A stretch of 10,175 bases of DNA from Paracoccaceae bacterium (lineage in GTDB: Bacteria > Pseudomonadota > Alphaproteobacteria > Rhodobacterales > Rhodobacteraceae): contig NVUP01000011.1 of NCBI GenBank assembly GCA_002401945.1, positions 38,674 to 48,848 on the forward strand, read 5' to 3'. The notes under the pieces were generated by a model that saw only the letters and a list, made by a program, of their open reading frames with translations, was not told the DNA's origin and made no database searches. This document shows positions 42-10,175 of the stretch, piece by piece. The position numbers and the translations under genes were made by a program. How positions within the stretch are numbered: position 1 is the stretch's first letter; every line of letters starts with the position of its first letter.

Positions 42-1064
42 TCAAGTCTTGCAAGCTTGAAGGAGCGCTCCGGCCATCCGGGCCAAAGACACTTGTTTTT
101 GTGCAGCTCCGGTCTGCCAGGCAACACGAGGCATGCCGTAAACAACAGAGCTTTTTTCATCTTGAGCAAAGGTGGTCGCCCCGGCCTTTCGCAGTTCCAG
201 TAGGCCCTTGGCGCCATCTTGTCCCATTCCGGTTAAGATTGTTGCTACAATATTCTTGGCCAAGGGCACTGCCGAGCTGAACAGAGCATCCACAGACGGC
301 GTGTGTCCCGAAATCGCGGGCCCATCTTTCAAACGGGTGCGGTGCGGCTTGCGCGGTGTCAGGCCAAGATGCTGGCTTTGACCGGCGGCAATGTGCACGG
401 TTCCAGGCAGCAGTTGGATATTGTCCTGGGCGGCGACAACTGAAGCAGCGCAAATCCGATCGAGCAGAGACACCAGGCCAGGTCCAAAATTCTTGCCGGT
501 ATGCTGCACAATCACTGTAGGAGGGCAATTGGCGGGAAACCCAACCAACAGGCTGCGCAGGGCCTCGACCCCACCGGTGGATGAACCGATCAGGATGATT
601 TTATCAGTGGTATTGGCGGCGGTGGATTGCGCTCCGTTTGAAGACGGGCGACGGTCGATTTCATTGCGCCGCGGGGCTTTTACCATCATATCGAAATACT
701 GCACGAATTGAACCGGATGGTCAGATTTGCTCAATTCAAAGATGCCTGCGCCGCGGTCCAGCAGGGGGTTCGATTTGCGCGCCGGTGCCGCCGAATGGCT
801 GTCCATCACCGACACCCAACGGGTATCCAGCGCAGAAAACAGCGCCATCATCATTTCAAACTCCGGTAATTTGGTAAACCCGTCCTCAATAAAAGCAAAG
901 GTCGGTTGCACCGATTCAGCCTGATTATAGGCCGTCATCAGATTATTGGCCAAAAGAACCTGCATGCCTGGATAGGCCGATTCCATATGACTTTGTAATG
1001 ACCGGGCAAACCCTCGATCCAAAGTTACGATCAAAACACTCAAGGAAGACAATGATTTACCCAT
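42..1064 (-). CDS. cheB: CheB-type protein-glutamate methylesterase with degenerate receiver domain
   Basis: This 340-aa protein is a CheB-family methylesterase/deamidase, which removes methyl groups from MCP glutamates in the cytoplasm to reset receptor sensitivity. The catalytic domain spans about residues 154-338. Its triad is visible as Ser162 in IGSSTGG, His188 in VQHTGKNF and Asp283 in LTGMGQDG. The N-terminal part (about 8-125) has the length and position of a CheB receiver domain but lacks its hallmarks. The acidic pair after strand 1 reads IVTLDRGF instead of a DD motif, and the phospho-Asp position reads FIEDGF, so Glu60 seems to replace the aspartate. Lys113 may be the conserved lysine. 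The gene lies 97 bp downstream of the MCP gene on the same strand. No Shine-Dalgarno is visible before the ATG. The methylesterase call is firm; loss of phosphorylation control is inferred from the missing residues. Confidence 0.93.
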   Translation of the reverse strand: MGKSLSSLSVLIVTLDRGFARSLQSHMESAYPGMQVLLANNLMTAYNQAESVQPTFAFIEDGFTKLPEFEMMMALFSALDTRWVSVMDSHSAAPARKSNPLLDRGAGIFELSKSDHPVQFVQYFDMMVKAPRRNEIDRRPSSNGAQSTAANTTDKIILIGSSTGGVEALRSLLVGFPANCPPTVIVQHTGKNFGPGLVSLLDRICAASVVAAQDNIQLLPGTVHIAAGQSQHLGLTPRKPHRTRLKDGPAISGHTPSVDALFSSAVPLAKNIVATILTGMGQDGAKGLLELRKAGATTFAQDEKSSVVYGMPRVAWQTGAAQKQVSLARMAGALLQACKT

Positions 1065-1161: not shown

Positions 1162-3513
1162 TTAAAAATCCTGCCAGACCTTAGTTGGGTCTGGGCCTTC
1201 GTTCGCGGCCACCGCACGCGGCTGTGCCTCGGGCTCGATGTCCCAGTCCGACCCATGTGCTGTAGGGCTGGAAAACTCGACCACGTTGCTGGTGGCAGGC
1301 TGCTGGCTTGCACTGCCGCCGATGTTGAAATGGGACACCAATTTGGACAGTTTGGTGGCGTCGCTGTTCAGCAAATGGCTGGCCGCAGTGGCCTGTTCCA
1401 CCATGGCCGCGTTTTGCTGAGTCACCTGGTCCAGTTGGGTGACACCGATGTTAATCTCACCCAAGCCAATGGATTGTTCTGCCGATCCCACAGCCATTTC
1501 CGACACCAACTGCGAGATATGATCAACCCGATTAACGATGCTGTTTAGGGCCTCGCCAGCTTTGCCGACCAATTCAACCCCTTGTTCAACCTGTTTCGAG
1601 CTGTCGCTGATCAATGTCTTGATCTCCATCGCCGCATCCGAGGATCGTTGCGCCAGGGCGCGCACCTCTGATGCAACCACTGCAAACCCGCGGCCTGCTT
1701 CGCCCGCTCGGGCGGCCTCGACGCCGGCGTTAAGCGCCAGCAAGTTGGTCTGAAAGGCGATGTCGTCGATCACTCCGATGATCTGGCTGATATGACGGGC
1801 CGAGTGCTCTATCTCGGTCATGGCCGCCACCGCGTGCTGCACCACCTTGTCGCTTTCCTCTGCCTCGGCTTTGGCTTCTCCCATGATCGATTCGACACGG
1901 GTTGCGCCCTCGGCGGCAGATTTGACACTGGCGGTCATCTCGTCCAGCGCTGCCGCGGTCTGCTCTAGCGTCGCCGCCTGGCTTTCAGTGCGGCGTGACA
2001 GATCATCTGAAGCCTGGCTGATTTCAGTAGCACCGTCGCGAATACTGGCGGCCGAGCTGATGACATCGACAATGGTTGAGCTGAGCGTTTCCAGGGTGCG
2101 GTTAAAGTCACTTCGCAACTGCTCATGGTTGGCAGAGAACTGTTCCACCAACGGCTTCGAGAAATCGCCATTGGCTAAGTTGACCAAGCCATGGCTCAGC
2201 TGTTCGACAACATGCTCTTGCTCACGTTGCTGCGTGGCGCGGTCTTCCTCGGCACTGCGTGCCCGTTTCAAATCTTCCTGCAAACTGACCAGCGATTTGC
2301 CGATCTGCCCCAACTCATCGTTGCGCTCAGCCGAAGGTATTTCACCGTCTAAGTCACCAGAGGCCACCGCATCCATACTCTCGCTGATTCTCGCAATCGG
2401 ACGGGTAATGCTGCGAGCAAACAACCAACCCAACAGCGACATCACTGCTGCGCAGAACAGGGATGCAATCAACATCTTATTTCGCTCTGCTATCACTGGC
2501 GCCATGACTTCTGCCCAGTCCTGTTCGGCGACTAAGGCCCAGTGACCTTCATGGAATGAAATGCTGTCAGAAAAGGCTATTACTTTCTGGCCATTTATGC
2601 CGATGGCGTCATGATAAAATACTTTACGGTCATCTAACGCAGACAGGATTTGTTCAGATCGGTTTAACTGTTCTAAAACTTGGAACCCACCGTCAAAACG
2701 CGACGTGGTGCGGGCCAGTAGATCCTCGCCGACCAAAAATATCTCGACAGTCTCACCCAGACCGTCTGAGTTATTGGTGACGTTGGTAAGCAAGTCTACA
2801 GGAAGCTGAAAGGCAAGCACTCCGACTGTTTTGCCGCCTTCGCCTACGATGGGCGTTGACACAAATGCCGCTGCATCACCGTTGCTGGGCGCATATCCTT
2901 TTAGATCAGAAAGATGTACTTCTCCCTGCGTCCCGTTGGCGGCAGCGCGGAACACTTCTGCCAAACCAGAATTTTTGTAGATGCCATTCAACAGGTTGGT
3001 GCCATAGTCGGCCTCTTTGAACACCGAGTAAACAATGTCCCCCTCCGTGTTGATCATAAAGACATCATAATATCCTTTTTGTTCCATCAAGGTCCGGAAC
3101 GCCGGATGAAATTTTTCATGCTGCAAGTGGTAAGGAGATTCTCCGGGTGCTCGGGTCAGCATATGCTTTTGACCCACCGGATTTGGGTTATCATTCACGT
3201 ATGCTTGGCGCAGAACCTGCCCGGAATCGCCATCGATGGCCCGCCAGGTCATGGTGAGCCGTTCCAAAGCCGCTGCCGTCGAAGGCACTGCTGCCATGGT
3301 CAAGATGTCAGCATCAACATTTTTCATAAAGGTCTTCAAGGCCAACTCACGGTCAGCAACAAGAGATTTGAAATGATCTTCACTGCTCGCAATTGTGTTC
3401 TTTTTAAAGCTCATGTTGCTAAGCAAAACGAGGGTTACAGTCATCAGAACACCGAAGCCGACGACAAATAGTGGCAGCTTAAGTGCCAGTTTAAGATTTT
3501 TCAGAGCCTTCAT
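1162..3513 (-). CDS. Transmembrane methyl-accepting chemotaxis protein, Cache-like sensor, C-terminal VWQDF tail
   Basis: This 783-aa receptor passes external chemical signals to the CheA-CheW kinase complex. It has a first membrane segment (about 13-33) and a periplasmic sensor region of about 310 residues. The sensor contains QKGYYDVFMINTEGDIVYS and FKEADYGTNL, typical of Cache-like sensors. A second membrane segment follows (about 346-366), then a HAMP domain (about 367-420) and a second HAMP-like stretch (about 438-480). The cytoplasmic signalling domain spans about 480-725, with the kinase-binding hairpin tip around 582-618 (IDDIAFQTNLLALN, EAARAGEAGRGFAVVASEVR). A flexible linker (about 731-778) leads to the terminal VWQDF, which resembles the CheR/CheB-tethering pentapeptide NWETF of E. 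coli Tar/Tsr. The start is supported by AGGAGGG (3518-3524 on the minus strand) four bases before the ATG. The ligand cannot be told from sequence. It may be co-transcribed with the following cheB. Confidence 0.96.
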   Translation of the reverse strand: MKALKNLKLALKLPLFVVGFGVLMTVTLVLLSNMSFKKNTIASSEDHFKSLVADRELALKTFMKNVDADILTMAAVPSTAAALERLTMTWRAIDGDSGQVLRQAYVNDNPNPVGQKHMLTRAPGESPYHLQHEKFHPAFRTLMEQKGYYDVFMINTEGDIVYSVFKEADYGTNLLNGIYKNSGLAEVFRAAANGTQGEVHLSDLKGYAPSNGDAAAFVSTPIVGEGGKTVGVLAFQLPVDLLTNVTNNSDGLGETVEIFLVGEDLLARTTSRFDGGFQVLEQLNRSEQILSALDDRKVFYHDAIGINGQKVIAFSDSISFHEGHWALVAEQDWAEVMAPVIAERNKMLIASLFCAAVMSLLGWLFARSITRPIARISESMDAVASGDLDGEIPSAERNDELGQIGKSLVSLQEDLKRARSAEEDRATQQREQEHVVEQLSHGLVNLANGDFSKPLVEQFSANHEQLRSDFNRTLETLSSTIVDVISSAASIRDGATEISQASDDLSRRTESQAATLEQTAAALDEMTASVKSAAEGATRVESIMGEAKAEAEESDKVVQHAVAAMTEIEHSARHISQIIGVIDDIAFQTNLLALNAGVEAARAGEAGRGFAVVASEVRALAQRSSDAAMEIKTLISDSSKQVEQGVELVGKAGEALNSIVNRVDHISQLVSEMAVGSAEQSIGLGEINIGVTQLDQVTQQNAAMVEQATAASHLLNSDATKLSKLVSHFNIGGSASQQPATSNVVEFSSPTAHGSDWDIEPEAQPRAVAANEGPDPTKVWQDF

Positions 3514-3939: not shown

Positions 3940-4227
3940 ATGACGACTGAACCACACACGCATGTTTTGGATTTGCCAAATGCATTTTCTGAGCTAACGC
4001 CGCTGATCTCGTTCCTGGATGGGGCCAGGTCCCAACCGATCGAAATTGATTGCAGCAAGGTAGCGATGCTGCCGTCCCGCTGCCTGCAATTATTGCTTGG
4101 AGCGGAACAACAATGGCGATCCGAAGGCCTTGGCTTTTCGGTCACCAATATCACCGAAGGCTGCCGCCGGGCTTTGTCCCTCATGGGGGTCGATGCCAAC
4201 CGATTTGAAGATGAGGACACAGTATGA
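3940..4227 (+). CDS. Small STAS-domain protein at the head of the che operon (CheS-like)
   Basis: This 95-aa soluble protein fits a single STAS domain. It has strand IEIDCSKV (34-41), then LPSRCLQLLLGAEQQW (44-59), where SpoIIAA/MlaB-type proteins have their Ser/Thr-bearing loop and first helix, and an FSVTNI strand (66-71). Alphaproteobacterial che operons commonly start with such a protein. In Sinorhizobium meliloti the 97-aa CheS in the same position before cheY1 binds CheA and speeds CheY1-P dephosphorylation. Equating this protein with CheS rests on size, fold and gene position, so it is inference. The ATG at 3940 gives the usual family length; a TTG at 3862 in the same frame would add 26 residues without domain character. 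The upstream GGGGGTG is distant, so the ribosome-binding site is weak. The stop overlaps the cheY1 start by four bases (ATGA), implying translational coupling. Confidence 0.8.
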   Translation: MTTEPHTHVLDLPNAFSELTPLISFLDGARSQPIEIDCSKVAMLPSRCLQLLLGAEQQWRSEGLGFSVTNITEGCRRALSLMGVDANRFEDEDTV

Positions 4228-4598
4228 AAACCAAAGTTTTGGCAATTGATGATTCCCGCACTATTCGGAATTTGCTTGCGGCCTGTCTGGAAGAGGCCGG
4301 GTTTGAATACCACAGCGCCGTTGATGGTCGCGAAGGGGTGGATATCTACCCTGACGTTGCACCAGATGTGGTGATCACTGACATCAACATGCCCAATCTT
4401 GATGGGTTTGGCGTAATCGAAGAACTGCGTGGAGACGGCATCAACTCCAAGGTTCCGATCTTGGTGCTGACCACAGAGAGTTCTGCTGATTTGAAGGCTC
4501 GTGCCCGCGCTGCCGGCGCCACTGGCTGGATCACCAAACCGTTTGACGATGAATCTCTGATCTTTGCGCTCAAGCGGGTAACAGGGGCGGTCGCATAA
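4224..4598 (+). CDS. cheY1: CheY-type single-domain response regulator (CheY1 position)
   Basis: This 124-aa protein is a complete receiver domain that takes a phosphoryl group from CheA. All key residues are present: acid pair Asp9-Asp10, phospho-acceptor Asp53 in TDINMP, Thr83 and Lys105 in KPF. Trp102 (GATGWITKPF) replaces the tyrosine of E. coli CheY Tyr106. No output domain follows. Lying directly between the STAS gene and cheA, it matches the position of S. meliloti CheY1. There CheY1 drains phosphate from CheA rather than turning the motor, so a phosphate-sink role is likely but inferred. It overlaps the upstream gene by four bases and ends one base before cheA. Confidence 0.93.
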   Translation: MKTKVLAIDDSRTIRNLLAACLEEAGFEYHSAVDGREGVDIYPDVAPDVVITDINMPNLDGFGVIEELRGDGINSKVPILVLTTESSADLKARARAAGATGWITKPFDDESLIFALKRVTGAVA

Positions 4599-4599
4599 A

Positions 4600-6768
4600 A
4601 TGACGGGTTCGATCATGGATACATTCTTTGAGGAGTGCGAAGAGCTCCTTGAAGCAATGGATGCGGGTCTGGCTGCCATCGAAGAAGGCGACCAGGATCC
4701 CGAGACCGTCAATGCGGTGTTTCGTGCTGTGCATTCCATCAAAGGCGGCGCCGGGGCGTTTGGCCTGGATGAACTGGTGGCCTTTGCGCATAATTTTGAA
4801 ACCGTTTTTGACGATGTACGCTCCAACAAGCTGGAGCTGGATGAAAAGCTGATTCAGCTTTTGTTCCGAGCCAGTGACCACTTGGCTGACTTGGTGACCT
4901 GTGCTCGGGACGGAGGTCAGGTCGACCAGGCGCATCATGATGTGCTGATCGCGGCGCTGGCTGAGTACATGAGTGAGGAGGAAGAAGACCTGACCTTTGA
5001 GCCGATGGGCATGGGCGCAGCGTTTGACCCTGCCCCGCTTTCTGCGGCTCAAGAGATCAGCTACGATATTCGTTTCCATCCCCTCAAGGAAATGTTTGCC
5101 ACCGGCAACGAACCCTATTTTCTGTTTCAGGCGCTGTCAGATCTTGGTGCTCTCTCGGTAAAGCTGGATGACAGCGAACTGCCTGGGTTTGATGCGATGG
5201 AAGATGGCGAAAGCTATCTGTCCTGGGAACTGACCCTGGTGACCGGCGAACCCCGTTCGGCAATTGAGGCTGTTTTTGAATTTGTGGAAGGCCTGTGCGA
5301 ACTGTCGATCAGTGCCGACGGGGACGTCGAAGCAGAGGCTGATGCGCTGGCAGCATTGAACGCTGCCTTTGGCATGGCTCCTGCGGAGGAAGAAAACGCG
5401 GTGGTTGCCCCTTTGGAACAGTCGGCGCCTGAACCGGTCGAAACCCCCGCTCCTGCGGAAGTTGAGGTCGATGAAGCGCCAGAAGTTCCAGTGGAAGCAG
5501 CCGCTGACAAGGCTCCTGCGGCCAAAAAGGATGCCGCAAAAACGAGCGGTCCCAAACCAACCCTGCGGGTTGAACTTGACCGAGTGGACCGCCTGATCAA
5601 CGCAGTGGGTGAGCTGATCATCAACCATTCCATGCTGGCGCAGCAAATCGCCAACCTGGATGCCAGTGACACCCGCGATGTCGAGACCGAGTTGGAAGGC
5701 TTCAAAACCCTGGCGCGCGACATTCAAGAAGGTGTGATGGCGATTCGCGCACAACCGGTGAAACCCCTGTTTCAGCGCATGGCTCGTATTGTTCGTGAGG
5801 CCTCGGCCGCCACGGGTAAAACGGCCAAGCTGGTCACCATTGGTGAGACCACCGAAGTCGACAAGACGGTGATTGAACGCCTGGCTGACCCCCTGACTCA
5901 CATCCTGCGCAACGCGGTGGATCACGGGATCGAACTCCCCGAAAATCGGGCCGCTGCGGGCAAGAATCCAGTCGGAGAAATCCGTTTGACGGCAGCCCAT
6001 CGGTCGGGCTCGGTCTGCATAGAAGTCAAAGATGACGGGGCGGGATTGAACCGCAAAAAAATCCGCCAGATTGCCATCGACAAGGGGTTGGTCCCAGAAG
6101 ATGTCGAACTGACCGACAGTGAAATCGACAACCTGTTGTTTTTGCCAGGCTTCTCAACAGCCAAGGAAATCTCCAACCTATCGGGGCGGGGCGTTGGCCT
6201 GGATGTGGTTAAAAACGCGGTAACTGCGCTTGGTGGTCGGGTCAATATCTCCTCCACTCCCGGTGAGGGGTCGATGTTCTCGATTATCCTGCCGCTGACG
6301 CTGGCGGTGATGGACGGCATGGTGGTCTCGGTGGCCGGGCACACCATGGTGGTTCCAATCACCGCGATTGTAGAGACGATGCGTGGCAATGCCGACATGA
6401 TCAACAGCCTCGGCTCGGATGGTACTCTGTTGTCCATTCGTGGCAGTTTTGTTCCGATCTGTGATGTTGCCAGCAGCCTCGGCCTGCGCAGCAGCTCACA
6501 TAATGAACCAGCTGGGGTTTACCTCTTGGTGGAAACCGAAAACGGGGATCGTTGTGCCCTGGCCGTCGATGACATTCATGATCAACGCCAAGTGGTGATC
6601 AAAAGTCTGGATGGCGTCTGTGGCAATGTCCCTGGCGTTTCTGCCGCAACCATTCTGGGGGACGGCAAGATTGCCATGATCCTTGACCCAGAAAGCATCG
6701 TAACGGCGTCGTCCTCGGCAGCCGTCTTTGACACCGATCGGAGGATGAGCAATGCAATTGCAAGCTGA
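4600..6768 (+). CDS. cheA: Chemotaxis histidine kinase CheA
   Basis: This 722-aa protein is the central kinase of the array. It autophosphorylates under MCP/CheW control and passes phosphate to the CheY proteins. Domains in order: P1 phosphotransfer (about 6-115) with His45 in AVHSIKGGAGAFG; a P2-like segment (about 153-240, SYDIRFHPLKEMF to IEAVFEFVEGL), probably for regulator binding; an Ala/Pro/Glu-rich linker (about 260-320); P3 dimerisation helices (about 322-385); the P4 ATPase domain with N-box Asn438 in LRNAVDHGIE, G1 DDGAGL (478-483) and G2 GRGVGL (529-534); and a CheW-like P5 domain (about 570-715). All catalytic motifs are intact. The ATG at 4600 is one base after the cheY1 stop; an in-frame ATG at 4615 (DTFFEECEELLEAM) is a plausible alternative start. 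The 3' end overlaps cheW by 17 bp. Confidence 0.97.
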   Translation: MTGSIMDTFFEECEELLEAMDAGLAAIEEGDQDPETVNAVFRAVHSIKGGAGAFGLDELVAFAHNFETVFDDVRSNKLELDEKLIQLLFRASDHLADLVTCARDGGQVDQAHHDVLIAALAEYMSEEEEDLTFEPMGMGAAFDPAPLSAAQEISYDIRFHPLKEMFATGNEPYFLFQALSDLGALSVKLDDSELPGFDAMEDGESYLSWELTLVTGEPRSAIEAVFEFVEGLCELSISADGDVEAEADALAALNAAFGMAPAEEENAVVAPLEQSAPEPVETPAPAEVEVDEAPEVPVEAAADKAPAAKKDAAKTSGPKPTLRVELDRVDRLINAVGELIINHSMLAQQIANLDASDTRDVETELEGFKTLARDIQEGVMAIRAQPVKPLFQRMARIVREASAATGKTAKLVTIGETTEVDKTVIERLADPLTHILRNAVDHGIELPENRAAAGKNPVGEIRLTAAHRSGSVCIEVKDDGAGLNRKKIRQIAIDKGLVPEDVELTDSEIDNLLFLPGFSTAKEISNLSGRGVGLDVVKNAVTALGGRVNISSTPGEGSMFSIILPLTLAVMDGMVVSVAGHTMVVPITAIVETMRGNADMINSLGSDGTLLSIRGSFVPICDVASSLGLRSSSHNEPAGVYLLVETENGDRCALAVDDIHDQRQVVIKSLDGVCGNVPGVSAATILGDGKIAMILDPESIVTASSSAAVFDTDRRMSNAIAS
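6740..6744 (+). promoter_or_regulatory. Shine-Dalgarno of cheW inside cheA
   Basis: GGAGG lies seven bases upstream of the cheW ATG at 6752, within the last codons of cheA. It selects this start over the out-of-frame ATG at 6745. Confidence 0.8.
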
Positions 6769-7219
6769 AACCAAACACACGGAACAAAGTGAGTTCGTCA
6801 GTTTCACCGTCGCAGGCCAGGCATTTTGTCTGCAAATAACTCAGATTCGCGAGATTCGGCGCTGGTCACCGGTGACGGTACTACCGCATGCGCCGGCTGA
6901 TGTGCTGGGGGTTATGAACCTGCGCGGTGCGGTTATCCCGATCTATGATCTATCGGCCCGATTTGGGTTGCAACAGACCGAAGCCAGCGAACGTAATGTT
7001 GTGATCGTGGTCTCGGTAAATGACAAGCCGGTGGGCCTGCTGGCCGAAGCAGTGTCTGAAATCATTTCGATCGACCCGGACGATATTCAGGAGACACCTC
7101 AGGTGGACAGCCGCAACACGATGGACTTCATCCAAGGGATCATCTCTCAGAATGACGAAATGGTGCGGATCATCAACCTCAAGGCAGTGATCTCTTCGCC
7201 GGAGCAAGTGGCCCTGTGA
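6752..7219 (+). CDS. cheW: CheW coupling protein
   Basis: This 155-aa protein links MCP signalling tips to CheA in the cytoplasmic array. The whole length is one CheW domain (about 13-147), beginning EFVSFTVAGQAFCLQI. It contains the family motif NLRG at 56-59 (VMNLRGAVIPIYDL), where the arginine takes part in receptor/CheA contacts in known CheWs, and Glu34 in IREIRRW in the conserved position. The length is normal. The gene starts inside the 3' end of cheA with a good GGAGG site and ends in a GTGA overlap with cheR, so its expression is probably coupled to both. Confidence 0.96.
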   Translation: MQLQAETKHTEQSEFVSFTVAGQAFCLQITQIREIRRWSPVTVLPHAPADVLGVMNLRGAVIPIYDLSARFGLQQTEASERNVVIVVSVNDKPVGLLAEAVSEIISIDPDDIQETPQVDSRNTMDFIQGIISQNDEMVRIINLKAVISSPEQVAL

Positions 7220-8076
7220 CCTTCGCCAGTCCAATAGACCCCGGGGCGGGTCAATTCACCCTGTCAGATCAGGATTTTGACGCTATCGCCAAGTTTGCCC
7301 ACAAGAATTTTGGGCTGGCTTTGTCGAGCAACAAGAAACCCCTGGTCTCCTCGCGTCTGTCGCGGCGGTTGAACCGGCTAAATGTGCGGAATTTCGACAG
7401 CTATCTGGCCAGCCTAGATAAGCCTGGTGGGGAAGGCGAGCGCAGTGAATTGCTATCGTTGCTGACCACCAATGTGACGCAGTTCTTTCGCGAACCGCAT
7501 CACTTCGAAACCCTGCGCGAAAAAGTTCTGCCGCCGCTGATCGAAAAGGCGCGCAGCGGTGGTCGAGTGCGGTTGTGGTCGGCGGGCTGCTCCAATGGGC
7601 AGGAACCCTATACCATGGCCATGGTGCTGAATCAGATGTGCCCGGATGCAGGCCGGTTGGACATCAAAATCCTGGGAACAGACATCGACCCGGTGGTGGT
7701 CCGCACCGCGCAGGCAGCGCAATACCCCGACGATGAACTGGCGCAAATACCAGCCAAATACCGGGTCAAACCTGGCAAGGAAGACGGCAATCAAATGCCC
7801 GAAGTGATCCGCTCTATGGTCAGTTTTGGCATCTTGAACCTCATTGAACCGTTTCCGTTCCACGGTAAGTTTGATGCCATTTTCTGCCGCAATGTGGCGA
7901 TCTATTTTGACACACCAACCCAGCAAAAAGTCTGGGCGGCGTTTCAAAAATCGCTGAACCCAGATGGCTATCTGTTCATTGGCCACTCGGAACGCATGTC
8001 CGGTCCCGCTGCCACACATCTGCAAAGCGCCGGAATTACAACCTACATCAACTCTTCTGCCGGTCCTCGCACCTGA
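7216..8076 (+). CDS. cheR: Chemotaxis methyltransferase CheR
   Basis: This 286-aa enzyme transfers methyl groups from S-adenosylmethionine to MCP glutamates and works against CheB. The N-terminal helical domain (about 18-90) carries LLTTNVTQFFREPHHF, the signature joining the two CheR domains. The SAM-binding motif is WSAGCSNGQEPYT (121-133), followed by GTDID (154-158) and FCRNVAIYF (223-231). A segment around 170-205 could form the beta-subdomain that grips a receptor tail, in keeping with the VWQDF tail of the neighbouring MCP, but this cannot be decided by eye. The start is a GTG overlapping the cheW stop (GTGA), with GGAG at 7201-7204 in front; no ATG in frame gives a full domain. The length is usual for the family. 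Confidence 0.96.
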   Translation: MTFASPIDPGAGQFTLSDQDFDAIAKFAHKNFGLALSSNKKPLVSSRLSRRLNRLNVRNFDSYLASLDKPGGEGERSELLSLLTTNVTQFFREPHHFETLREKVLPPLIEKARSGGRVRLWSAGCSNGQEPYTMAMVLNQMCPDAGRLDIKILGTDIDPVVVRTAQAAQYPDDELAQIPAKYRVKPGKEDGNQMPEVIRSMVSFGILNLIEPFPFHGKFDAIFCRNVAIYFDTPTQQKVWAAFQKSLNPDGYLFIGHSERMSGPAATHLQSAGITTYINSSAGPRT

Positions 8077-8112: not shown

Positions 8113-8499
8113 ATGAGCCTCAAAGACTCGCTGCGCGTTATGGTTGTTGATGACATGTCCACCAGCCGTGGAATTCTGACCCAATGTCTGGATGAACTGG
8201 GCATCAAGAATTATATGGTTGAAAACAATGGCCAATCGGCCTTCCAGAAAATCAACTCCAATCCAGTGCATCTGGTGCTGTCGGATTATAACATGCCCGG
8301 TATGGATGGTCTGGGCCTGCTGAAATGCCTGCGCGAAAATCGCATGACTCAACGCACAGGTTTCATTCTGGTGACCGGCAAACCGACGCCCGAAGTGATC
8401 GAGGTTGGTCGCCGTCTGCAAATGAACAACATCATTCGCAAGCCGTTTACCGTGGCCACCATGAAACAGGCGATCGAACAAGTTGTAGGGCGCCTGTAA
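8113..8499 (+). CDS. cheY2: CheY-type single-domain response regulator (CheY2 position)
   Basis: This 128-aa protein is a receiver domain with Asp13-Asp14, phospho-acceptor Asp58 in SDYNMP, Thr88 in LVTGKP and Lys110 in RKPF, so it should be phosphorylated by CheA. The position equivalent to E. coli CheY Tyr106 appears to be Ile107. It differs clearly from the first CheY in the window. From its place after cheR and by analogy with S. meliloti CheY2, it is the better candidate for the motor-binding regulator; this is inference. The 36-bp gap after cheR contains AGGA eight bases before the ATG. Most of that gap is a repeated GGAACTA (8092-8098 and 8102-8108). Confidence 0.92.
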   Translation: MSLKDSLRVMVVDDMSTSRGILTQCLDELGIKNYMVENNGQSAFQKINSNPVHLVLSDYNMPGMDGLGLLKCLRENRMTQRTGFILVTGKPTPEVIEVGRRLQMNNIIRKPFTVATMKQAIEQVVGRL

Positions 8500-8501
8500 A
8501 C

Positions 8502-8828
8502 ATGGAGAGGAATGGCAAATCCCTGACTGATCTCTGCGCGGTGTCCGCCCGTGAAATGTCCCACTTACAAGCCCAGGTGCAGAGGCTTGAAGATGTGGTG
8601 TTTACCATTCTCGAAAGCGATACCAAGCCGACAAGCAAAGACCGTCAGGCGCTGCAGGATTTTGATGTCATCGTGCAGACTCTGGCCGGGCTGGCTGGGT
8701 TCTTTCAACGCTTGCAGTTGCAAAGTGCCGACAACGGCGACACCGACGTGATGCAGGCCTCCGAAGCAATCACTTTGCAAAAATTGCGTGAGCGCCTGCG
8801 CGATACTGCCGAAGTGATTACCTTCTGA
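8502..8828 (+). CDS. Small helical che-operon protein with a DxxxQ motif (candidate CheT/CheZ-like phosphatase)
   Basis: This 108-aa protein starts two bases after the cheY2 stop and is the last gene of the operon. It looks almost wholly helical, with one helix at about 16-39 (REMSHLQAQVQRLEDVVFTI), one at 46-74 and one at 88-105. The second contains LQDFDVIVQTLAGLAGFF with Asp55 and Gln59 spaced as D-x-x-x-Q. In CheZ the Asp/Gln pair of QDFQDLTGQ drives CheY-P dephosphorylation. In S. meliloti the operon protein CheT is reported to carry such a motif, to dephosphorylate CheY1-P and to bind CheR. Full homology to either is not visible by eye, so the phosphatase role is inference. The ATG at 8502 has only AGGG (8487-8490) at a long spacing, suggesting coupling to cheY2; Met19 is an alternative start. 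Confidence 0.75.
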   Translation: MERNGKSLTDLCAVSAREMSHLQAQVQRLEDVVFTILESDTKPTSKDRQALQDFDVIVQTLAGLAGFFQRLQLQSADNGDTDVMQASEAITLQKLRERLRDTAEVITF

Positions 8829-8897: not shown

Positions 8898-8930
8898 AAA
8901 CCGTGATCAGGGTGGTCACGGTTTTTCTTT
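8898..8930 (+). terminator. Rho-independent terminator of the che operon
   Basis: AAACCGTGATCA (8898-8909) and TGGTCACGGTTT (8913-8924) pair over 12 bp with one G-U wobble and a GGG loop. A T-rich tract, TTTTTCTTT (8922-8930), overlaps the end of the stem and continues past it. This is a strong intrinsic terminator for plus-strand transcription. It lies between the last che gene and the caspase-like gene, so the two are probably separate transcription units. Confidence 0.85.
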
Positions 8931-8960
8931 CTCTTTATGGGCTGGACGCGATAGACTGAC

Positions 8961-8994: not shown

Positions 8995-10175
8995 ATGACT
9001 GCTATTTGGCGGATATTCTGTGTAATAGTCTGGTTGCTTGCGCCTGCTCTTGGTCAGGCTGACAGCCGCCGAATTGCCCTGGTGATGGGCATGTCTGAGT
9101 ATCAGGCCCTGCCCTTTCTGGAAAACACCAAAAACGACGCCACTGCAATGGCGGAAATGCTCACCAGAATTGGCTTTGAGGTCACGCTGTCGGTGGATGC
9201 TGGAGTGGCCGAAGTTGAACAATTGCTCGATGATTTTGCTTTCCGCTCTGAGGTGGCAGATCTGGCGCTGATCTATTTTGCCGGCCATGGCATCGAGGTT
9301 CAGGGCGAGAATTTTCTGATCCCGGTGGATGCTGCGGTGAAGAGCAACCGTGACGTGCAGCGGCAGTCGATGTCACTGAAACGATTGCTGGCAGCGGTGG
9401 ATCGCGCCCGAAAAATGCGCATCGTTATCTTGGACAGTTGCCGCAACAATCCGCTGGGAGATGCCATCGCACTGGAGGGCGGAAGCGTCGAGACGGCCAG
9501 TGTCGCTGGCACCCGTGGCGGTGGCGGCGGTATGGCGGCTGCGGACCCTGACCGTGGCACATTGGTGGCCTTTGCTGCACGTGACGGTCAGGTGGCGCTG
9601 GACGGCAATGGTGAAAATAGCCCCTATGCCGTTGCCCTGATAGAAAAAATGGCCCAGCCAGGACTTGAGATCAGCCTGATGTTTCGGCAGGTTCGTGACC
9701 GGGTGCTACAACAGACCGGCAATCTGCAAGAGCCGCATACCTATGGATCTTTGACCGGGGTGCCGTTCTATCTGGCTGGGGCTGCCGAAGGTCAGGTTGA
9801 TGTCGCCTCGGCGGCGGCAATCGACGCTTGGGCAGCGCTGCGCCCCGATCAAGAGGAGCAATTGCTGGCTCTGGCCGATCAGGGCGATACCCGTTCGATG
9901 TTGGGTCTGGCCTACATCCGGCTGAATCCTAATGAGGGCCGGTTTGACCCCAAGGCAGCGGTGGCTTTCCTGCAGCGCGCCTCAGATGCCGGCTCTCCCG
10001 AGGCACAGTTTGAACTGGCCAAATTGTATGAACGCGGCACCGGAGTGGCGGTGGATCATACGCGCGCGCTGGTCCTGTACCGCGCCGCCGCCGAACAGGA
10101 TTTTTCCGATGCAATCAACGACCTCGGATTTCTACATTATCAGGGTGGCTTGGGGCTGCCGGCCGACCCGCAAAA
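8995..10175 (+). CDS. Exported caspase-like (peptidase C14) protein with Sel1-like repeats, cut by the window end
   Basis: At least 393 residues are encoded, open to the window end. Residues 1-22 look like a signal peptide (hydrophobic WRIFCVIVWLLAPALG, likely cleaved near Ala22). A caspase-like domain spans about 25-262. It has IALVMGMSEY, NTKNDATAMAEML and the catalytic His98 in YFAGHGIEVQGENFLIPVD. The catalytic Cys149 lies in VILDSCRNNPLG, and FAARDGQVALDG and GENSPYAVAL follow. Both catalytic residues are present, so it should be an active cysteine peptidase; bacterial members usually cleave after Arg or Lys. From about 290, Sel1/TPR-like repeats follow, clearest at 334-368 (EAQFELAKLYERGTGV), and probably mediate protein contacts. 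A loop at about 170-178 holds five consecutive glycines. GAGG at 8984-8987 is seven bases before the ATG. The substrate is unknown; the upstream terminator argues against a link to chemotaxis. Confidence 0.9.
   Translation, partial: MTAIWRIFCVIVWLLAPALGQADSRRIALVMGMSEYQALPFLENTKNDATAMAEMLTRIGFEVTLSVDAGVAEVEQLLDDFAFRSEVADLALIYFAGHGIEVQGENFLIPVDAAVKSNRDVQRQSMSLKRLLAAVDRARKMRIVILDSCRNNPLGDAIALEGGSVETASVAGTRGGGGGMAAADPDRGTLVAFAARDGQVALDGNGENSPYAVALIEKMAQPGLEISLMFRQVRDRVLQQTGNLQEPHTYGSLTGVPFYLAGAAEGQVDVASAAAIDAWAALRPDQEEQLLALADQGDTRSMLGLAYIRLNPNEGRFDPKAAVAFLQRASDAGSPEAQFELAKLYERGTGVAVDHTRALVLYRAAAEQDFSDAINDLGFLHYQGGLGLPADPQ

Follow-up and report, generated by a model that had tools for sequence, protein, structure and literature searches.

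A divergent CheT-family gene, putatively for CheY-P dephosphorylation, is the last gene of a chemotaxis operon in Rhodobacteraceae

The gene that follows cheY2 in a chemotaxis operon of the Rhodobacteraceae is a real, conserved, unannotated and divergent member of the CheT family, and we hold with good confidence that it encodes a helical-hairpin protein of that family, putatively speeding CheY-P hydrolysis. The nearest named relatives of the organism are Parasedimentitalea, Leisingera and Phaeobacter, and the family name, which is inferred, is used here in its wide sense. In the window, by which we mean the whole stretch of 10,175 nucleotides that was analysed, Pfam places cheB and a methyl-accepting chemotaxis protein gene on the minus strand, and a STAS gene, cheY1, cheA, cheW, cheR and cheY2, in that order, on the plus strand. 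The open reading frame of interest (8502-8828, plus strand; ATG at 8502, TGA at 8826-8828) encodes 108 amino acids, begins 2 nt past the cheY2 stop codon, and has no Pfam match above the cut-off. On its 3' side lies a 12-pair terminator-like hairpin (8898-8924) with a T-rich tail. Because of the 2-nt spacing and the terminator-like hairpin, we take the frame to be the operon's last gene, as the initial annotation had proposed. The coding sequence is under constraint, with a dN of 0.129 and a dS of 0.87 relative to the homologue on a Parasedimentitalea psychrophila plasmid, the same comparison giving 0.045 and 0.79 for cheY2. The features are as follows.

42..1064, minus strand: cheB, methylesterase domain (Pfam)
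1162..3513, minus strand: methyl-accepting chemotaxis protein with C-terminal VWQDF, a CheR-tether-like pentapeptide (Pfam)
3940..4227, plus strand: STAS protein (STAS_2) at the position of rhizobial cheS (Pfam)
4224..4598, plus strand: cheY1, 59.5% identical to Shinella CheY1 (Pfam, pairwise comparison)
4600..6768, plus strand: cheA (Pfam)
6752..7219, plus strand: cheW (Pfam)
7216..8076, plus strand: cheR (Pfam)
8113..8499, plus strand: cheY2, directly upstream of the CheT-like gene, receiver residues conserved (Pfam)
8502..8828, plus strand: CheT-like gene, 108 aa, last in the che operon (ORF, NCBIfam, profile homology, census)
8634..8735, plus strand: predicted helix 2 of the hairpin, residues 45-78 (AlphaFold2)
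8655..8657, plus strand: Q52, invariant in the family census and Q in 81/83 of the wider alignment
8664..8666, plus strand: D55, putative catalytic Asp, corresponding by motif to E. coli CheZ D143 (conservation)
8676..8678, plus strand: Q59, putative catalytic Gln, corresponding by motif to E. coli CheZ Q147 (conservation)
8811..8825, plus strand: C-terminal EVITF, a drifted form of the family tail G-[DE]-phi-[DE]-phi-F
8898..8934, plus strand: terminator-like hairpin and T-rich tail, putative operon end

Past the operon, a caspase-domain gene with a Sel1 repeat (8995-10175, plus strand) runs out of the window, and on plasmid pQS-2 of P. psychrophila a caspase-family gene likewise comes after the che operon. 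In P. psychrophila (pQS-2) and Phaeobacter inhibens M636 the che cluster as a whole is plasmid-borne, and the two plasmids belong to the same replicon cluster. On pQS-2 type VI secretion genes are close by, and the receptor gene is missing, with only about 0.8 kb left between cheB and the STAS gene.

The protein drew attention through a DxxxQ motif, D55 and Q59 within LQDFDVIVQ, placed in a predicted amphipathic helix, a description with which the translation of the frame, the AlphaFold2 helix spanning residues 45-78 and the hydrophobic moment all agree. Could such a motif be a coincidence in an unrelated small helical protein? The initial annotation had itself cautioned that a short match can arise by chance, and rightly so, as 66% of 20,000 shuffles of the 108-residue protein contain DxxxQ. 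The motif alone does not rise above chance, and the case is therefore made by conservation. Q52, D55 and Q59 are kept in all 67 aligned members of a 198-genome census, in which plain leucines are the next most conserved well-filled positions, and the 68th member, truncated by a contig end, reads by hand as LQHIDLITQ. These three residues are the only invariant columns in an alignment of 19 relatives, and when 83 sequences, accepted CheT proteins among them, are aligned jointly, only D55 and Q59 are invariant, with Q at position 52 in 81 rows and H in the other 2. The check on relatives that had been proposed for Asp55 and Gln59 thus finds both residues kept, in 68/68 census members and in 83/83 rows of the joint alignment. 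All 80 rhizobial CheT proteins that were fetched have the motif as well. A chance origin is refuted by this conservation, and we give it practically no weight.

The census covered 198 genomes of the window's family. A search with the single sequence at an E value of 0.01 gave 19 matches, including the window's own; a CheY2 homologue ends no more than about 80 bases upstream of the chosen start in 18 of them, and about 0.7 kb upstream in the remaining one (L020). When the alignment of these 19 (profile A1) was used to search the same genomes again, the gene was found in 68/198. CheA (PF02895) occurs in 92/198, and every one of the 68 gene carriers is CheA-positive, so that by profile the gene is present in 68/92 CheA genomes. 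In 65 cases CheA lies upstream of it on the same strand, no more than 6 kb away; for the other three, the contig has no CheA on the gene's strand. Profile A1 found no match in the 24 other family genomes with CheA, from which 30 CheA loci were fetched. In nine of these loci, from nine genomes, CheY2 is at least 40% identical and the sequence is readable beyond it, and a Q-x2-D-x3-Q frame follows CheY2 in 9/9, a count that comes from a pattern test and is weaker than the profile search. One further locus stops at a contig edge inside CheY2, five with a distant CheY2 (30-37% identity) yielded no motif-bearing frame, and the remaining 15 showed no close CheY2 in the sequence that was fetched, which for several of them ends at a contig edge. 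Together, the profile and pattern results tie the gene to one operon type and indicate that it is not universal. A second che operon type is present in the family (L257, L258, L259, L264), with cheR followed by cheB and a CheY2 that is 31-37% alike; no CheT-like frame was found near it.

The initial annotation had left a choice between a Rhodobacteraceae CheT and an independent minimal phosphatase. In NCBIfam the top match of the window protein is CheT (NF047973; E 0.0017, 18.4 bits), far from the equivalog cut-off of 200 bits that the Shinella CheT passes with 223.5 bits, and the gap between 18.4 and 200 bits places the protein on a distant branch and not with the rhizobial equivalog. Within the window's own genome, NF047973 matches this gene (E 0.0076) and, weakly, one other (E 0.52), and among ten further relatives seven are matched below E 0.1 and three are not matched. 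The Shinella gene order is MCP, STAS, cheY1, cheA, cheW, cheR, cheB, cheY2, cheD, cheT, fliF, and with Shinella CheT as query 80 named loci were fetched, mostly from Rhizobiaceae. Position and fold are the basis for identifying the window's STAS protein as CheS; it and its Shinella counterpart are both STAS_2, yet pairwise similarity between them was not found.

Twenty-three rhizobial CheT sequences, the Shinella protein as first row and 22 from the 80 loci, were aligned as A2. Comparing A1 with A2, hhalign returned 97.6% (E 2.7e-12, score 72.7, 103 columns), whereas the highest score among 150 column shuffles of A2 was 19.6 and the reversed A2 scored 12.5. D55 and Q59 align without gaps to D63 and Q67 of CheT. 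Another alphaproteobacterial order contributed 18 loci, found in 16/150 genomes, with CheY2 upstream in 16/18, CheB ahead in 12 and CheD found in 12. Sixteen of these loci were aligned as A3, in which the D and Q are again invariant, and in profile comparison A3 bridges the A1 and A2 groups at 99.6% and 98.9%; reversed, it gives 48% over 34 columns, as against 99.6% over 117 columns forward. Judged from its sequence, the window gene belongs to the CheT family taken broadly, as it has profile homology, an aligned DxxxQ and a late position in a two-CheY operon. The top NCBIfam match, the controlled profile homology, the operon position and the invariant D and Q all support the first of the two proposals, a Rhodobacteraceae CheT, and with homology supporting that reading the independent minimal phosphatase is not needed.

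A shortened, diverged CheZ would have the same motif on a similar helix face and in the second helix of a hairpin, with a short tail at a similar distance; the Q lies a median of 58 residues from the C-terminus in the 67 census frames, compared with 67 in E. coli CheZ. No trace of common descent was recovered, however. Profile A1 compared with 12 CheZ sequences reaches only 1.0% in hhalign, inside the shuffle range, the CheT profile compared with CheZ gives 0.8%, and the invariant FQDxTGQ context of CheZ is missing from the CheT-like family. CheZ by descent, for which there was no Pfam match either, was rejected, and we consider a diverged CheZ very improbable. The likeness to CheZ is at most one of plan, comprising the motif, the helix face and the distance from the Q to the C-terminus. 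Classical CheZ is indeed absent from the window, as first reported, with none among its nine proteins by Pfam, and the same scan of the nine found no CheC or CheX. None of the three was found in the window's assembly, which is 85% complete, and CheZ (PF04344) was found in 0/198 genomes of the family compared with 70/190 in the class.

What, then, might the CheT-family protein do? In CheZ, D143 helps to hold CheY and Q147 places the attacking water. The source study on S. meliloti CheT is reportedly Agbekudzi et al. 2024. In DxxxQ chemistry of the CheZ kind, the acid and the amide coordinate the attacking water (PMC3510030), and S. meliloti CheT, with its DXXXQ motif and an AlphaFold model that resembles CheZ, is described as speeding dephosphorylation for just one of the two CheYs (PMC12654446). 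Because of this CheZ chemistry and the reported activity of CheT, the window protein most likely speeds the dephosphorylation of a CheY, by analogy with those two proteins. We found no report in the literature of activity for any member of the window's CheT-like family.

Two AlphaFold2 models agree on a hairpin of helices 8-38 and 45-78 followed by two short helices, the one built on the deeper alignment (80 rows) having a pLDDT of 87.5 and a pTM of 0.74. By a helix-wheel estimate made on the sequence, D55 and Q59 point outward from the helix, which speaks against the concern that the pair might be buried: measured from the hydrophobic face, D55 stands at 109-138 and Q59 at 149-178 degrees, and in CheZ the same estimate puts D143 at 106-150 and Q147 at 146-170 degrees. 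Fold searches with the models returned common helical matches at noise level, and CheZ (1kmi) was not listed; DHp chains of the kinase HK853 were among the weak structural matches, which is noise level for helical models. We envisage that the antiparallel helices 8-38 and 45-78 probably dimerise through their hydrophobic faces to give a CheZ-like four-helix bundle, and that Q52, D55 and Q59, turned outward on helix 2, would meet the phospho-Asp of CheY, where D55 would help to hold CheY and Q59 would place the attacking water, as their CheZ counterparts do. Such a phosphatase would end the CheA signal where CheZ, CheC and CheX were not found. Both CheY1 and CheY2 of the window keep the receiver-domain residues that we take to be the important ones, CheY1 being the clear counterpart of Shinella CheY1 (59.5%) and CheY2 37.5% identical to Shinella CheY2. 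The tight linkage of the gene to CheY2 hints at CheY2 as the substrate, although this is suggestive only.

In most relatives, a short peptide at the C-terminus, joined through a loose linker, probably serves to dock a partner, either CheR or CheY, and in the window's own clade this peptide has drifted. A relaxed version of the tail, an F/W/Y/L end with a nearby acid, is present in 54/67 census sequences, 13/16 of A3 and 23/23 of A2. The GDF[ED]xF tail of rhizobial CheT is absent from the window protein, which ends in AEVITF; near relatives end in SFSAR and SAAQE, and two (L004, L005) are without any such tail. In the second model the last residues of the window protein form a small bridge with residues 80-81, and a structural role for them is possible. 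CheD tails are similar. CheD ends in F/W/Y in 81/81 rhizobial, 12/12 other-order and 11/14 further readable sequences, and CheD C-termini (IEFF, VELF, VTLF) fit phi-[DE]-x-[FWY] in 100/105 of those fetched. The same pattern ends 79/80 rhizobial CheT, 9/16 of A3 and only 21/67 census sequences, and 0/411 other che proteins from the fetched loci, all these tail counts being of sequences that include non-independent relatives and, in some loci, the same gene twice. The cheD gene of the window's assembly lies just beyond the window start (L235:743-1291, minus strand), and its product has a tail of this kind too.

The receptor pentapeptide is aromatic at positions 2 and 5, and its other places are mostly taken by acids (PMC7390727). 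A W-x-x-F end is found in 4/9 receptor matches of the window's genome, including the operon-adjacent VWQDF receptor, and rhizobial CheT tails such as DFEAF and DFDFF fit the pentapeptide rule; in the census family, tail position 2 is mostly occupied by an aliphatic or some other residue. S. meliloti CheT forms complexes with CheR (PMC12654446), and the tail could explain that binding. A CheT-family homologue might then serve mainly in adaptation, binding CheR (or CheB or CheD) to tune receptor methylation and using the D and Q for binding, not catalysis. The CheR complex, the resemblance of the family tail to the CheR-tether pentapeptide and the similar tail of CheD would all suit such a role; however, the residues that do not change are the CheZ catalytic pair and not the tail, which is lost in the window clade, and CheR is also present in che loci that yielded no such gene. 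We think a chiefly adaptive function unlikely, and prefer CheY-P dephosphorylation as the function of the protein. A more speculative idea, which we put forward tentatively and would not expect to hold on present evidence, is that the unrelated CheT and CheD share a phi-[D/E]-x-F tail that imitates the NWETF-type CheR tether and docks both on CheR or a common partner, and that the Leisingera/Phaeobacter/Parasedimentitalea clade, to which the window is assigned by similarity, has unplugged its CheT while keeping the catalytic pair. If true, the shared tail would couple the ending of the signal to adaptation across CheT-bearing Alphaproteobacteria. We found no paper in the literature on a CheD tail of this kind.

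A practical gap concerns how Rhodobacteraceae, in which CheZ was not found, end the chemotaxis signal, and this gene is a candidate to fill it; its product is probably the off-switch in bacteria where no CheZ was detected, and D55 and Q59 are two residues to mutate. By tblastn, 84 plasmid records contain a match, of which 76 belong to Phaeobacter or Leisingera, and among the matches listed the gene is annotated as a hypothetical protein in 40/40. The P. inhibens M636 plasmid has eight che-type genes besides the receptor (CheD, CheB, STAS, two response regulators, CheA, CheW and CheR), after which comes the homologue, labelled a hypothetical protein. In P. inhibens, a marine species in use for motility genetics, eight chemotaxis genes on a 262-kb chromid are lowered in CtrA-phosphorelay mutants (PMC12363192). 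Since M636 has eight che-type genes plus a homologue labelled hypothetical, the CheT-like gene is probably not among the eight of that study. PMC12654446 mentions CheT homologues in rhizobia, Caulobacter crescentus and Hoeflea, and we found none reported in the literature for Rhodobacteraceae; the CheT family is now extended from rhizobia into another large group.

Of the known systems, CheT of the Rhizobiaceae is the closest, sharing profile homology over 103 columns, the LQxxDxxxQ signature, a late position in a two-CheY che operon and, in most relatives, a C-terminal F. Yet identity is only about 20%, and the window protein falls far below the NCBIfam cut-off. The Shinella cheT gene follows cheY2 and cheD, whereas the window gene comes directly after cheY2, with cheB and cheD of its assembly upstream on the opposite strand, and in the window clade the C-terminal tail has drifted. 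The window protein resembles the plan of CheZ, in which helical hairpins that also have a linker and a C-terminal helix form a dimer (PMC7750401), and both proteins carry D-x3-Q on an amphipathic helix, facing outward. Unlike CheZ, however, the window protein is half the length and has no DDIDxLL-type tail, and sequence homology between the two is undetectable. HisKA_3 kinases such as NarX also have a DxxxQ phosphatase motif (PMC3510030). Unlike these kinases, the window protein has neither a phospho-accepting His before the Asp nor an ATPase domain; what it would share with them is a DxxxQ borne on a helical hairpin in contact with a receiver domain.
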